44,607 nt of DNA from Phycisphaerales bacterium (GTDB lineage: Bacteria > Planctomycetota > Phycisphaerae > SM23-33): positions 1 to 44,607 of the forward strand of contig JABGPZ010000062.1 of the NCBI GenBank assembly GCA_018644725.1, given 5' to 3'. The position numbers and the translations under genes are program-made. Below, one piece after another: positions 2,268 through 14,917 of this stretch (position 1 is the stretch's first letter; the number at the start of each line of letters is the position of its first letter). The notes below the pieces were generated by a model. The model saw only the letters and a list, made by a program, of their open reading frames with translations. It did not search any database and was not told the DNA's origin.

Positions 2268-3324
2268 GAGATTCTCCTGTCGCAGTCATCAAGTCGTATT
2301 GGTTCTGGTGTTCCGAGATCATAGTGTCCACATTCAGGCGCTCGATTGCAACCGTCTGGGCAGATTCTTCCAGGCGATTTCGCAGTGGCGCGTCGCCAAT
2401 CAACCGCTCCAGCGCGTCAGCGAGGGCGGCCGATGTGCGCTCGGGGAGCAGGCCCGTCGTTTCGTTCGTGACAATTTCGCTGATGCCCCCCACTGCCGGC
2501 GCGATCACAGCCCGCCCGGCGGCCATCGCTTCGCACATTACCAGCGGGAACCCTTCGATCTGGCTGGTGAGCAAAACCGCGTCGGCTGCCGCGAGAACGC
2601 CCGAGGCCTCGACGAATCCCGGCGCGAGTACCTTCGCACCTTCGGGCGCATTGGCGACGACCGCACCGAGCCCTTCGCCCGCGACGAGCCATGTCACCGG
2701 CCGATTCCGTCGGGCCATTTCGGCAATGACCTCGCGAAGCAAATCGACGCCCTTGTCGGGGTGATTCCGGCCAACCCACGCGACGACGAATTCGCCCCCG
2801 CCGACAGACCATTGCCCGCGCCACTGGGGCCGCAGCGCGCTGGCGTCGGCAAAATGGGCCACGTCTACGCCGTTGGAAATCACGGCATAGTCCGCCGAGG
2901 TGCGGCGATTGCGGCGAGAATGAAATTCGGCGACACTCTGGGCAACCGCGATATGGTTCGCACGGCACGGGCCAAGACGGCGCGGCTCGAAGGTATGAAT
3001 CGTGTGGCACCACGGCACGGATTTGCGCGCGAAGAGATTGACCGCCTGCCCGGCGCGGAAGAGGTGGGAGTGGATCAGATCAAATTCGCGTAGCCATTTT
3101 CGCAGCCGCCAAAGACGCGCAATGTCAAACCGGCATCGCATCTCACAGCAGCGCACTTCAATCCCGGCGGCCTCAAAATCGGCACGCATCGCTCCCCCGC
3201 GCAGTGCGATCACCACCGGCTCGAAGCGGCTACGGTCCAGCCCGCGCGCAAGGGTCAACACGCAGGCCTCGGCGCCGCCGCGGCCAAGAGTCGGCAGGAT
3301 GTAGGCGATGCGAAGTCGGGTCAT
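2257..3324 (-). CDS. Glycosyltransferase, GT4-type fold
   Basis: A 355-residue GT-B glycosyltransferase. The N-terminus (RIAYILPTLGRGGAE) is the usual Gly-rich acceptor-side loop of GT4 enzymes. The C-terminal half carries the nucleotide-sugar site, with SQIEGFPLVMCEAMAAGRAV giving the E-x7-E motif of retaining enzymes. It has no signal peptide or membrane segment and is likely cytosolic or peripheral. Donor and acceptor cannot be told from sequence. The gene starts only 9 nt after the T-run of an intrinsic terminator and overlaps galM by 11 nt at its end. It could belong to polysaccharide or glycolipid synthesis, but no other cell-envelope gene is adjacent. Confidence 0.88.
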   Translation of the reverse strand: MTRLRIAYILPTLGRGGAEACVLTLARGLDRSRFEPVVIALRGGAMRADFEAAGIEVRCCEMRCRFDIARLWRLRKWLREFDLIHSHLFRAGQAVNLFARKSVPWCHTIHTFEPRRLGPCRANHIAVAQSVAEFHSRRNRRTSADYAVISNGVDVAHFADASALRPQWRGQWSVGGGEFVVAWVGRNHPDKGVDLLREVIAEMARRNRPVTWLVAGEGLGAVVANAPEGAKVLAPGFVEASGVLAAADAVLLTSQIEGFPLVMCEAMAAGRAVIAPAVGGISEIVTNETTGLLPERTSAALADALERLIGDAPLRNRLEESAQTVAIERLNVDTMISEHQNQYDLMTATGESHAD

Positions 3325-4885: not shown

Positions 4886-6193
4886 CTAGCCAACGATGCC
4901 GGAATTTTTTTCCCAGCGCTTGAGATTGACCACCTCGGCGAGAGTCGAGTTGCGATCGTGAATTTCCTGGCGAATGCGATTTTCGGCCTCGAGGACGTTC
5001 GCTGCCCGATTGGCAAGCTCGACGGCCTGGGCCTGGGGAACGACCATCACGCCATCGTCGTCGGCGACAATCCAGTCGCCCGGACAGATGCGCTGATGGG
5101 AAATCACAATGGGAGTGTTGATCTCGCCGCAGCCGTGGGGGTCGCCCGCGTGGGACGTGACGTGCGAGGACCAAACGGGGAATTTCATCGCGCGAATTTC
5201 TGCGGTATCGCGAACGGCGCCGCAGACAATCAGCCCGGCGATGCCTTTGTTCTTGGCGCTCTCGGAGGCAAGCTCGCCCCAGATCGCCGGCGGCATGTCA
5301 CAAGCATCGATCACGAGGATGTCGCCCTGGTTTGCAACGTCGATGGCCTCGACGGGCTTGGCCCAGTCGCCGGGGAGGGTGCGAACGGTGACGGCCTGGC
5401 CGACGGCGCAGAGCCCAGGTGTGACCGGCCGAATGCCTTCGAGGCACGGCTGGCGGTGGGCAGCATCAGACAGATTCGCCGTGCGCAGTTGGGTCAACGC
5501 CTCGCGCAGGGTCGATGCATCGTGGCGTTTGAAGTGTTCCGAGGCAATGACCTCGCCGGATTCGAGCGCGGAAAGAATGTCGCGGGTGGCCTGTTCGATA
5601 TCCACGGCCTTGGTGATCGCGCCGCCGACAATCACGACATCGGCGCCGGCCTGGGCACACGCGCCAGCCGTCTCGGAATTCACCCCGCCCGCAACGGCGA
5701 CGGTCAGGTCGCTCGCGGCGCGCACTTCGCGCAGAAGGTCAAACGGGTCGAGCCCGCGCATCTGCTGATCGATCGCGCAGTGCACATCCAGCCACGCCAC
5801 GCCGAGGTCCTTGGCCTTGGCGGCAAACGCGACCGGGTCGGCCATGCCGAGCAGGTCAACCGCAACGGAGATTCCGTAATGGTTGCCCGCCTCGACGCAC
5901 TCGCGGATGGTCGCTTCGTCGGCAGCGCCGAGAACCGTCATCACGTTTGCGCCGGCCTTGGCGGCGGCTTCGGCTTCGATTTTGCCTGCGTCCATGGTTT
6001 TGGTATCGGCGATGATCGTCGCATCGGGAAATTCACGGCGCAAAGCGCGCACGGCGTCGAGGCCTTCGGATTTGATCAGCGGCGTACCCGCTTCAAACGT
6101 ACGCGCTCCGGCAGCATATGCCGCGCGGGCCACCATCATCGCCCGGTCGAGTTCGAGGAAATCCAATGCCACTTGAAGAGTCGGTTGAGTCAT
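4886..6193 (-). CDS. Fused 3-hexulose-6-phosphate synthase / RraA-like protein
   Basis: A 435-residue two-domain protein. Residues 1-210 are a TIM barrel of the HPS/orotidine-decarboxylase superfamily: QVALDFL with Asp11, Glu35, ADTKTMDAG at 62-70, and a phosphate loop AVAGGV. HPS joins formaldehyde and ribulose 5-phosphate, or acts in reverse to supply ribose phosphates. Residues about 245-400 match the RraA/HMG-aldolase family, including GAVRDTAEI (325-333), GDWIVADDDGVMVVP and a Gly-rich core. The same fusion is annotated in archaea and some bacteria. No phospho-hexuloisomerase gene is nearby, so whether it works in formaldehyde fixation or pentose supply is open. The second domain may be an aldolase rather than a nuclease regulator. 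The domain calls are sure; the reaction is inferred. Confidence 0.85.
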   Translation of the reverse strand: MTQPTLQVALDFLELDRAMMVARAAYAAGARTFEAGTPLIKSEGLDAVRALRREFPDATIIADTKTMDAGKIEAEAAAKAGANVMTVLGAADEATIRECVEAGNHYGISVAVDLLGMADPVAFAAKAKDLGVAWLDVHCAIDQQMRGLDPFDLLREVRAASDLTVAVAGGVNSETAGACAQAGADVVIVGGAITKAVDIEQATRDILSALESGEVIASEHFKRHDASTLREALTQLRTANLSDAAHRQPCLEGIRPVTPGLCAVGQAVTVRTLPGDWAKPVEAIDVANQGDILVIDACDMPPAIWGELASESAKNKGIAGLIVCGAVRDTAEIRAMKFPVWSSHVTSHAGDPHGCGEINTPIVISHQRICPGDWIVADDDGVMVVPQAQAVELANRAANVLEAENRIRQEIHDRNSTLAEVVNLKRWEKNSGIVG

Positions 6194-6325: not shown

Positions 6326-7654
6326 TTACTTCGGCGTAACGATCAAATCATATCCATCAAAATCGGTCACTTCGCACGCAACCATCTCTCCGGGCTCGCG
6401 CGGTTCGGCGAAATAGCACACCCCGTCGATCTCGGGGGCCTGGCCATAGTGGCGCCCGACGCAATAGCCTTCTTCGTCGATCCCGTCGACGAGGACCGTC
6501 AGCCGTCGGCCGATGGAATTGGCGTTGGTGCGCTCAACAATTTCGCGCTGGGTGGCCATGAGACGCTCGGCCCGTTCGCGGGCAATCTCCAGCGGAACCT
6601 GGTCGGGCATGGTCGCCGCGAGGGTGCCCTCTTCGGGGCTGAATTCGAACACGCCGAGCGCGTCGAAGGGAAATTCCTGGATGAACTGGTGCAATTCGTC
6701 AAATTCCGCCTGCGTCTCACCGGGGAAGCCCGTGATGAACGTCGTGCGGATCACCATCGTATTGACGTGTTCGCGCAGATCGTTGAGCGTGTCGACGATT
6801 TCGTCGCGGGTGATATTGCGGCGCATCCGCGAAAGGACCGACGTCGAAATATGCTGCAACGGCATATCGACATAGGGCACGACCTTCGAGCACTCGTTGA
6901 ACACCTCGCGCAGCTCGCGGTCGAACAGGTTCGGGTAGGCGTACAGAACGCGGATCCACACCGCGCCGTCGAGGGCGTTGAGTTCGCGCAGCAACGTCGC
7001 GAGGTTCGACGGCTCGGGCAACTCACGTCCCCAGCAGGCGGTATCCTGGGCGATGATGCTCAGTTCTTTCGCGCCGGACTCGATCAATTCGCGCGCTTCG
7101 TCGAGGATCATCTCCATGGGCTTGGAGCGGAACGGGCCGCGAATCTGCGGAATGGTGCAGAACGCACAGGTGCGGCTACAGCCTTCGGCAATGCGAAGGT
7201 AGGCCGTGTGCGGCAAGGTCAGGCGGAAGCGCCCCGCGTCGCCAGGAGCGCCATCGAGGAACGTCTGCGGCGAGGCGGTGAGATAGCTCTTGCGGCCTAC
7301 ACTGCCGAGGACGGCCTCAACGATGTTGGTCCGGTCCGACGCGCCGACGATGATGTCCACGCCGTCAAGTTTCAGCAATTCTTCGCCGTCGCGATTGGGC
7401 AAACACCCCGCAACAACGATGTGGCGGCATTTGCCATGATCGCGCATGGCGTTGGCTTCTTCGATCACTTCGAGCGTTTCGGCGCGCGAAGCCGCGAGAA
7501 AGCCGCAGGAATTGATAACGATCACGTCGGCATCGTCGGCGGGCGCACCAACAATGCACCCTGCCTCGGCGAGGTCCGCGAGCATTTTTTCGCTATCGAC
7601 AAGATTTTTCGGACATCCCAGCGGGATGAGACAGACACTGAGGGGCTCGGTCAT
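6326..7654 (-). CDS. rimO: Ribosomal protein S12 methylthiotransferase
   Basis: A 442-residue radical-SAM methylthiotransferase that modifies a conserved Asp of ribosomal protein S12. The N-terminal UPF0004 domain holds the three cluster cysteines (IPLGCPKN, VINSCGF, AGCLPNRD). The radical SAM motif is CSRTCAFC within AEGCSRTCAFCTIP. The C-terminal TRAM region follows, with LVDGIDEEGYCVGR. Length is normal. The start at 7654 is used because it overlaps the upstream stop as ATGA and the protein begins there in the family; an upstream in-frame start would lie inside the neighbouring gene. It is coupled to the lipoprotein gene. The RimO-type motif order fits better than MiaB, but substrate was not tested here. 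Confidence 0.93.
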   Translation of the reverse strand: MTEPLSVCLIPLGCPKNLVDSEKMLADLAEAGCIVGAPADDADVIVINSCGFLAASRAETLEVIEEANAMRDHGKCRHIVVAGCLPNRDGEELLKLDGVDIIVGASDRTNIVEAVLGSVGRKSYLTASPQTFLDGAPGDAGRFRLTLPHTAYLRIAEGCSRTCAFCTIPQIRGPFRSKPMEMILDEARELIESGAKELSIIAQDTACWGRELPEPSNLATLLRELNALDGAVWIRVLYAYPNLFDRELREVFNECSKVVPYVDMPLQHISTSVLSRMRRNITRDEIVDTLNDLREHVNTMVIRTTFITGFPGETQAEFDELHQFIQEFPFDALGVFEFSPEEGTLAATMPDQVPLEIARERAERLMATQREIVERTNANSIGRRLTVLVDGIDEEGYCVGRHYGQAPEIDGVCYFAEPREPGEMVACEVTDFDGYDLIVTPK

Positions 7655-8586
7655 TTCGAGGCCTTTCCAGAAGGGGCGCTTGGGGGCAGCACATCGAGCT
7701 GCCACAACGGTGCGGGGTTTTTTTCACTGGTGAGAAAGAGCGTCCGGCCATCGCGGCCAAAGCAGATCGATTCGCCTTGGCGGCGTTTGGGGAGTCTTAC
7801 CATTGTAGGCCGTCCGGCGAGGGCTTCGGGCCAAGTTTGATCGTCGCGGCGGGAATATAAAAATGCGTGGCGATAGGTACAGATCACCGCCAGCTGCCCG
7901 TCGGAGCTGATATCCATCGCATTGGGGCTGTACAAATCGGCGACGACTCCCACTGGCGAAAGGATGTGCGTCCGATCGGGATCGTTCTCGACGGGGAGCG
8001 TCAGCGCGTAAAGGCACTTGCGGAGACTCCGCTTGGTCAGCAGATAAATCGTCCGCGTCGAGACATCAAACGCGATGGATTCCACATCGTGGCACCCGTC
8101 GCTATAGCGAAGGCGGATGACCTGGGTCGGGCGGGTACGCAACCGTTGGGAGGTCTGGGCCGTGAAGTCCACGACGGGCTCTTCCACGAGATAGAGCGTA
8201 AGTATTTTTCGCCGGCGGTCATTGTCCCCCGTATCGGCGATCAGCAGCCATGCCTTCTGGTCGAGTTGGAAGCTGCACATGTCTTCCCAGTCGCGGGCCT
8301 GGGCGCCATCGATCCAAAGTCGCGCGCGCGTCTTGCCCTGATGGTCAATCGCGAACAGCTCTGGCCCGTCGCCGGAATCGTTATGCGTCCAGAGAAGCCC
8401 GGGCTGTCGCCAGCTCACCGCCAGGCCGCTGGACTCGTTGATCGACCGGTCTGCGAGGGTCGCAAGTTCCCGGGCCGGACCATAGCGCACCACCCGCGGC
8501 GGGGCCTGGTGCGAGGGCGGTTTGGGCCTGTCACACCCCACAACCAGCATTATCGCCAGAAAGCAACTTGAGATTCGTATCCACAT
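7651..8586 (-). CDS. Lipoprotein with probable beta-propeller domain
   Basis: A 311-residue protein with a lipoprotein signal (LAIMLVVGC, Cys18). The mature part has recurring strands such as ESSGLAVSWRQPGLLWTHND, WLLIADTGDNDRRRKILTL and DISSDGQLAVICTYRHAFLY, which resemble six-bladed SMP-30/SdiA-regulated-type propellers. No enzymatic motif is evident. It ends in a four-base ATGA overlap with rimO. The start lies at the predicted transcription start point and there is no ribosome-binding site, so the mRNA may be leaderless. The function is unknown; a periplasmic binding role is only a guess. Confidence 0.7.
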   Translation of the reverse strand: MWIRISSCFLAIMLVVGCDRPKPPSHQAPPRVVRYGPARELATLADRSINESSGLAVSWRQPGLLWTHNDSGDGPELFAIDHQGKTRARLWIDGAQARDWEDMCSFQLDQKAWLLIADTGDNDRRRKILTLYLVEEPVVDFTAQTSQRLRTRPTQVIRLRYSDGCHDVESIAFDVSTRTIYLLTKRSLRKCLYALTLPVENDPDRTHILSPVGVVADLYSPNAMDISSDGQLAVICTYRHAFLYSRRDDQTWPEALAGRPTMVRLPKRRQGESICFGRDGRTLFLTSEKNPAPLWQLDVLPPSAPSGKASK

Positions 8587-8597
8587 GCCGCTATACT
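8568..8597 (+). promoter_or_regulatory. Leaderless promoter of the dus gene
   Basis: TTGAGA (8568-8573), 18-nt spacer, TATACT (8592-8597). A start point 7-8 nt after the -10 box is 8604 or 8605, and the ATG begins at 8605. No ribosome-binding site is present. Confidence 0.65.
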
Positions 8598-8621
8598 ACC
8601 GTCAATGACCTTCGAACTCAA
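8593..8621 (-). promoter_or_regulatory. Leaderless promoter of the propeller-like lipoprotein
   Basis: Minus strand TTGAGT (8621-8616), 17-nt spacer, TAGTAT (8598-8593). The start point is predicted at 8586, the A of the ATG. Its -10 box overlaps the -10 box of the divergent dus promoter. Confidence 0.6.
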
Positions 8622-9672
8622 ACCATTCCGCATCGGAAATTTGCAAGTGGACTTCCCCATCGCGCTCGCGCCGCTGGCGGGCTATTCGGACATGCCCTTT
8701 CGGCGGCTGTGCCGACAGATGGGTTGCGAGTATGCCACGAGCGAAATGATGCTCGATTCGTGCATCGCGATCCAGTCCAAACAGCAGATGTCGCTGATCG
8801 CCTTTGGCGACGATGAGCACCCCCTCGCTGGCCAGCTCGTGGGCAATACGCCCGAGATGATGGCCACGGCCGCGAAGATGGTCGCGGACCAGGGCTTCGA
8901 CGTGGTGGACCTGAATTTTGCATGCCCGGTCAACAAGGCCATCAAGCGCAAGCGCGGCGGGCGACTGATGAACGATCCGAAACTCGCGATTGAAATTATC
9001 CACGCCGTGGTCGATGCGGTGGACGTGCCGGTGACGGTGAAGAATCGCCAGCGCTATAACAATGACGACACGGAAGAAAATTTCTGGCAGATGGCCGAAG
9101 GCGCACGCGATGCGGGCTGCGCGATGCTGACGGTCCATGGCCGCAGCGTCGAACAAAAATACACCGGCCCGGCCGACTGGGATTTCCTCCGGCGCGTCAA
9201 GGCGCACTTTCCCGACTGGACCGTCCTCGGCTCGGGCGACGTGCTCAGCCCCCACCACGCGATTGAACTGCTCAAGACCTCCGAGCTGGACGGCGTGGTC
9301 GTCGCGCGCGGTGTCATCGGCAATCCGTGGTTCTTCCGCCAGTGCCGCGCCATCCTCGCCGGCGACGAGCCCCAAGTCCCCACTCTCGCCGAACAGGCCG
9401 AAGTCATGCGCCAGCACTTCGACGCCCAGCTGGAGTTCTACGGCGAACGCATCGGCTGCAAGAACATGCGCAAATGCGGCATCAAATATGCCCGCAACCA
9501 CCCCCACGCGCGAAAACTGCGCATGACATTCGTCGACATGAAAACCCGCAAAGATTTCGACCGCATCCTCGGCGAATGGTACACCGACCGCTACGAAGCC
9601 GAACTTCGCAAAAAAGTACTGCGCGAAGGAATTTCCGGCATGACGTGCCACATGCCCAACGTTCGACCTTGA
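8605..9672 (+). CDS. dus: tRNA-dihydrouridine synthase
   Basis: A 355-residue FMN enzyme that reduces uridines in tRNA loops to dihydrouridine. The N-terminus has the family flavin loop (LAPLAGYSDMPFRRLC). NFACPVNK carries the catalytic Cys, followed by KRKRGGRLM. VTVHGRS-type (LTVHGRSVEQKYTGPADW) and GSGDVLSP plus ARGVIGNPWFF complete the TIM-barrel FMN and phosphate sites. It looks closest to DusB. It is transcribed alone and divergently from the propeller lipoprotein, 18 nt apart. The -10 box places the start point at the ATG. The Dus family call is firm; the B subtype is tentative. Confidence 0.93.
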   Translation: MTFELKPFRIGNLQVDFPIALAPLAGYSDMPFRRLCRQMGCEYATSEMMLDSCIAIQSKQQMSLIAFGDDEHPLAGQLVGNTPEMMATAAKMVADQGFDVVDLNFACPVNKAIKRKRGGRLMNDPKLAIEIIHAVVDAVDVPVTVKNRQRYNNDDTEENFWQMAEGARDAGCAMLTVHGRSVEQKYTGPADWDFLRRVKAHFPDWTVLGSGDVLSPHHAIELLKTSELDGVVVARGVIGNPWFFRQCRAILAGDEPQVPTLAEQAEVMRQHFDAQLEFYGERIGCKNMRKCGIKYARNHPHARKLRMTFVDMKTRKDFDRILGEWYTDRYEAELRKKVLREGISGMTCHMPNVRP

Positions 9673-14326: not shown

Positions 14327-14461
14327 CTTTATGTGCATCGATGATTTCCGTGGTACAAGAGGGCCCGGTGATCCCCCAAAAAACAATTGAAAGGGTGCCG
14401 TGGAATGTGGAGCGTACTCGCGACACAGCCACGCAGATCCAATCGCGAAGCAGGTGTTTTT

Positions 14462-14506
14462 GCCCTGAAAGGGCAACAGTGTTTAGCCGGGGGCGTAAGC
14501 CCCCGG
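14462..14506 (-). repeat. REP-like palindromic element, copy A
   Basis: Palindrome CCGGGGGC-GTAA-GCCCCCGG (14487-14506) beside a second hairpin GCCCTGAAAGGGC (14462-14474). It matches copy B in inverted orientation. Confidence 0.75.
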
Positions 14507-14669: not shown

Positions 14670-14714
14670 CCGGGGGCTTACGCCCCCGGCTACACACTGC
14701 CGGCCCTTCGGGCC
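14670..14714 (+). repeat. REP-like palindromic element, copy B
   Basis: Palindrome CCGGGGGC-TTAC-GCCCCCGG (14670-14689), then CTA-ACACTG spacing, then hairpin GGCCCTTCGGGCC (14702-14714). It is the inverted counterpart of copy A, about 180 nt away. Confidence 0.75.
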
Positions 14715-14917
14715 TGTCCGAGGGAAACCGAATACTCTGACTCATCTATTTCGCAAAGGGTCGTGTGTATTCATCGCGAAGGGACACATATAATTTTCTT
14801 TCCCCGGTAATGAAACATGAGTCTCTTTTATATACTTGTATCTTGTGGTGCAGGCGTCTTGCCTGCCATGTTTCCGCTTTTTCCTCCTGCCTACCGCCTA
14901 CTCCCCTACAGCCTTCT

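Follow-up and report, generated by a model that had tools for sequence, protein, structure and literature searches.

Can one -10 region serve two divergent genes whose mRNAs both begin at their start codons? The question is raised by a locus in a 44,607-nt stretch of DNA from a Phycisphaerales bacterium (contig JABGPZ010000062.1; hereafter the window), in which two genes point away from each other across a very short spacer. The minus-strand ATG occupies 8586-8584 and the plus-strand ATG 8605-8607, which leaves 18 nt between them (8587..8604), and this spacer contains the putative -10 boxes of both genes. Judged from the sequence, both start codons are sound.

The plus gene (8605..9672, 355 aa) is identified by its profile matches as dusB, encoding a tRNA-dihydrouridine synthase: it scores 298.8 bits against NCBIfam TIGR00737 (DusB), above the curated cutoff of 293.3, and its match to Pfam Dus is 1.1e-72. 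Its start agrees with the N-terminus of the Dus family and with the starts in relatives. The minus gene (7651..8586) is an open frame for a 311-aa protein that has a lipoprotein-type signal and is without known domain; searches against Pfam, NCBIfam and PDB sequences gave no match. The N-terminus, MWIRISSCFLAIMLVVGC, carries this signal and requires the Met at 8586; ATG 8586 is also the first possible start of the gene, since a TAG in its reading frame, within the gene's -10 box, leaves no earlier one. Homologues of the protein are present in 25 of 60 related genomes. The family has the conserved motifs WTHNDSGD, DWEDMCS and RQGESIC and mostly strand content; a single-sequence AlphaFold model of the window's protein reached a pLDDT of 45.6 and was unusable.

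Candidate promoter elements in and around the spacer

Each gene is preceded by a candidate promoter whose -35 box lies within the coding sequence of the other. For dusB, the box TTGAGA (8568..8573, plus strand), inside codons of the minus gene, is followed after an 18-nt spacer by TATACT (8592..8597, plus strand), which was found by promoter scan and is kept before dus in relatives, and then by N7 and the ATG. For the minus gene, TTGAGT (8616..8621, minus strand), within the dusB codons for Leu-Lys in the ELKP motif, is followed after 17 nt by TAGTAT (8593..8598, minus strand), N6 and the ATG. The two -10 boxes share 5 bp (8593-8597), and joined they form a symmetric heptad, TATACTA (8592-8598), of the self-complementary pattern TANNNTA. 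Within 25 nt upstream of each start there is no Shine-Dalgarno sequence. The preliminary description had these features right: start codons 18 nt apart, a -35/-10 pair on each strand, overlapping -10 boxes and no ribosome-binding site for either gene.

It had also placed both transcription starts at or next to the A of the ATG, and this claim can be set against the genome as a whole. We sampled 1.84 Mb of the same assembly in stretches and called 1,286 genes with a simple home-made caller based on a coding-potential model, in which neither promoters nor Shine-Dalgarno sequences were used in placing starts. Among these genes, 68 have an upstream TANNNT with exactly 6 nt between it and the start, as opposed to about 10 at other distances, and 17 have TATAMT there, as opposed to 0-5 elsewhere. 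All 68 starts of this N6 class are ATG, and a Shine-Dalgarno sequence is found in 7% of the class (the background level) vs 50% of genes overall. The class also shows, without selection for it, a TTG at -35 to -33 (n=68), with a spacer of 17 in 29 genes, 16 in 8 and 18 in 4, and none at 13-15 or 19-20. This pattern is the signature of a putative leaderless class with a sigma70-type promoter, comprising roughly 5% of genes. The N6 peak, the emergent -35 and the missing Shine-Dalgarno sequences, together with conservation at dus loci (see below), support the claimed start positions as a prediction. Both genes of the pair are accordingly predicted to be leaderless: from the -10 spacing and an 18-bp geometry, the plus transcript would start at the A at 8604, giving a 1-nt leader, or at 8605, and the minus transcript at the A of its ATG (8586).

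The two sites were scored in several ways. A generic promoter scan of 2.3 kb found one site where 0.6 were expected; this was the plus site, and taken alone the result is weak evidence. On a genome-specific leaderless model (trained on starts from the simple caller, its weight matrix excluding both genes of the pair) the minus site scores 11.9 bits, or 10.8 without flanks. A score of 11.9 is reached by 30 of 51,779 non-start ATGs (0.058%) vs about 4% of called ATG starts. The plus site is the best within 400 nt on its own strand under the same model, with nothing above 2 upstream of 8605 once shifted readings and overlapping sites too near the ATG are set aside. Both its spacer, at 18, and its distance to the start, at 7, differ by one from the commonest values.

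The pair in related genomes

The dusB direction is conserved. Of 29 other dus loci, most of them from one family, 15 carry TATACT at a distance of 6-8 nt upstream of an ATG or GTG start and 2 more carry it at 9-10 nt, and in about 5 others a one-mismatch form occurs at 6-7 nt; in this count the start codon was picked in favour of a -10, and by chance the exact hexamer would be expected at three positions in well under 1% of loci. Because the arrangement recurs among dus loci, leaderless dus appears to be an old trait in these relatives. Across the family (L013-L041) the start that follows TATACT-N6-8 is often GTG, while the leaderless class of the window's genome is all ATG. At other loci the divergent neighbour of dus is often rimO, across larger gaps.

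Most relatives have dus without the lipoprotein-like partner alongside. In three of them (G021, G029 and G033), however, the same partner adjoins dus head-to-head, with start gaps of 59, 43 and 43 nt, respectively. All three again have a symmetric, overlapping -10 region, and TATACT is invariant when the four pairs are aligned. By sequence, the partner gene in these relatives has a leader with AGGA, AGGAG or GGAG. Since the lipoprotein gene keeps a leader and a Shine-Dalgarno sequence in the three relatives, the double leaderlessness of the window's pair looks derived.

A probable shared promoter and its alternatives

Promoters that work in both directions are known, and their geometry has been described. 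Transcription starts 18 bp apart are preferred, with 10 and 23 bp also common; -7T and -11A are reciprocal between the strands, a T at -18 is preferred, given that transcription on the other strand begins with A, and opposing polymerases cannot occupy such a promoter together (PMC12825309, PMC10268837). The locus fits this geometry: the predicted starts are 18 bp apart, A8593 and T8597 are reciprocal, and both strands have T at -18 (8586 and 8604). What it has in common with the symmetric -10 promoters of Warman, Grainger and colleagues is a shared -10 with separate outer -35s. None of the E. coli and Salmonella examples consulted is described as leaderless, whereas at this locus the predicted starts are at the start codons and the -35s are in the opposite genes.

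Our preferred reading, to which we would give a probability of about 0.8, is that the 18-nt gap is one bidirectional promoter from which both genes are transcribed leaderless, and that the dusB direction is the older. RNA polymerase with the housekeeping sigma factor would bind the heptad TATACTA either way round. A separate -35 would set each orientation, and it lies among the first codons of the gene on the other side. The dusB transcript would start at 8604/8605 and that of the lipoprotein-like gene at 8586, a separation of 18 bp, so that both mRNAs would begin at the AUG or one base before it; their translation would presumably follow the leaderless mode. On one DNA copy the polymerase could, for steric reasons, take up only one orientation at a time, at basal strength probably with little cost to either gene. 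The dusB direction would be the old, conserved one. On the simplest reading of the relatives, the divergent gene probably adopted this -10 and at first had an ordinary leader, of which about 25 nt, including the Shine-Dalgarno sequence, were later lost in this lineage, a direction that we infer from the sequence comparison.

The minus -10 is in part a by-product of the plus -10, and the minus score is to that extent dependent on the plus. TATACT on the plus strand leaves the minus -10 needing only one more base, A8598, so the overlap is cheap by itself; the A8598-type heptad is carried by 14 of 65 leaderless-like promoters, which is about the frequency of A. The minus -35 could likewise be a coding coincidence because it sits in conserved dus codons (Leu-Lys), and CTCAAACC is retained at this place in relatives that lack the partner gene. 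It is conceivable, then, that only the plus promoter is real, that the minus boxes are chance products of -10 symmetry and dus codons, and that transcription of the lipoprotein-like gene begins within dusB and yields a leader that has no Shine-Dalgarno sequence; the leadered minus gene of the three relatives would agree with this. As the heptad overlap is no commoner than base frequency predicts, the case for the minus promoter comes from its -35, its exact N6, and the absence both of alternatives and of a Shine-Dalgarno sequence. Within 400 nt upstream of 8586 no rival minus-strand site scores above 2.8 bits, the next best reaching 2.7, as against the 10.8 without flanks here. The N6 distance of the ATG and the 17-nt distance of the -35 are precisely the modal values in this genome, and a leader of the kind supposed would leave the lipoprotein-like gene without a known start signal. 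We therefore regard a lone plus promoter as improbable. A different possibility is that the overlap is a dedicated switch, in which one direction shuts off the other and couples tRNA dihydrouridylation to the lipoprotein. Steric exclusion is established at such promoters, strong activation one way can repress the other direction (PMC12825309), and three relatives, in which 43-59 nt separate the two genes, keep the pair head-to-head. Yet basal competition was negligible in 5/5 tested E. coli cases, neither a regulator site nor a functional link was identified at this locus, dus stands without this partner in most relatives, and a related layout is not enriched in the class (see below). A dedicated switch thus seems very improbable. 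The earlier claim that polymerase uses one direction at a time holds in the sense of steric exclusion; it does not carry over to a switch-like effect, which is not implied because the two directions of measured bidirectional promoters hardly compete when activity is basal. We treat mutual exclusion as regulation only as a possibility.

Beyond the shared bidirectional promoter that we prefer, the pair might form an interlocked minimal unit. Two leaderless genes would depend on a single -10 heptad, the A that opens one gene's start codon would supply or adjoin the -18T in the promoter of the other, and the -35 of each would sit among its neighbour's first codons. The two genes would then inherently limit each other's expression, and neither promoter nor start could change without affecting both. 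We find this extension rather doubtful.

Frequency and precedent

A scan of the sampled part of the genome for overlapping -10 boxes at divergent ATGs, as the preliminary description had suggested, recovered the window's pair but no second case among 170 divergent pairs with convincing starts. Two candidates were rejected. One, at 3109-3132 of stretch L134, has a real leaderless gene on the minus strand but no convincing gene on the opposite side; its symmetric motif lies between a leaderless queC-like gene and the ATG of a frame of about 48 codons, possibly a small ORF or an antisense start. The other, in L108, is a weak match with a TTG start inside a 152-nt gap. Across 397 genomes of the class, the pattern CAT-N5-TATAMTA-N5-ATG occurs at 25 sites vs about 24 for a reversed-pattern control, and in the family the N5/N6 layout occurs at 8 sites, including that of the window, vs 3 for the control, an enrichment that is weak if any. 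Because these counts are near those of the controls, there is no clear enrichment of the layout. It has the look of two common devices that happen to coincide neatly and that evolution has let stand, and not of a recurrent system.

Leaderless genes already described have TANNNT about 12 bp before the start (Zheng 2011, PMC3160421; Deinococcus-Thermus, PMC12340547; M. tuberculosis, PMC3898074). They share with the present pair the position of this motif and the lack of a Shine-Dalgarno sequence, but their -10 box usually serves one gene, whereas here it would be common to two divergent genes. A further parallel is offered by prpD (Rv1130) and Rv1129c of M. tuberculosis, divergent neighbours whose mRNAs were both mapped as leaderless; there, however, the leaderless starts are at internal Met26 and Val9, and a shared -10 box is not reported in the accessible part of that study (PMC3898074). 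A limited literature search found no direct precedent for a leaderless pair on one shared -10, which leaves the absence of one unproven. Most likely the locus combines two already known phenomena in compact form.

If both 5′ ends are as predicted, the locus would have nearly the smallest functional promoter region possible for two divergent genes, and it would provide a natural test of polymerase competition free of leader effects. The pair and its relatives, which keep a leader and a Shine-Dalgarno sequence on one side, also offer a before-and-after comparison. For a poorly studied lineage, the analysis suggests leaderless initiation for about 5% of genes, with dus often among them.

Other features of the window

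Two matches to the Acido-Lenti-1 RNA (RF01687), both above the gathering score, lie at 14461-14506 (minus strand) and 14670-14715 (plus strand), inverted and about 160 nt apart. At 4886-6193 on the minus strand, a 435-aa ORF resembles, by eye, a fusion of a hexulose-6-phosphate-synthase-like and an RraA-like protein.
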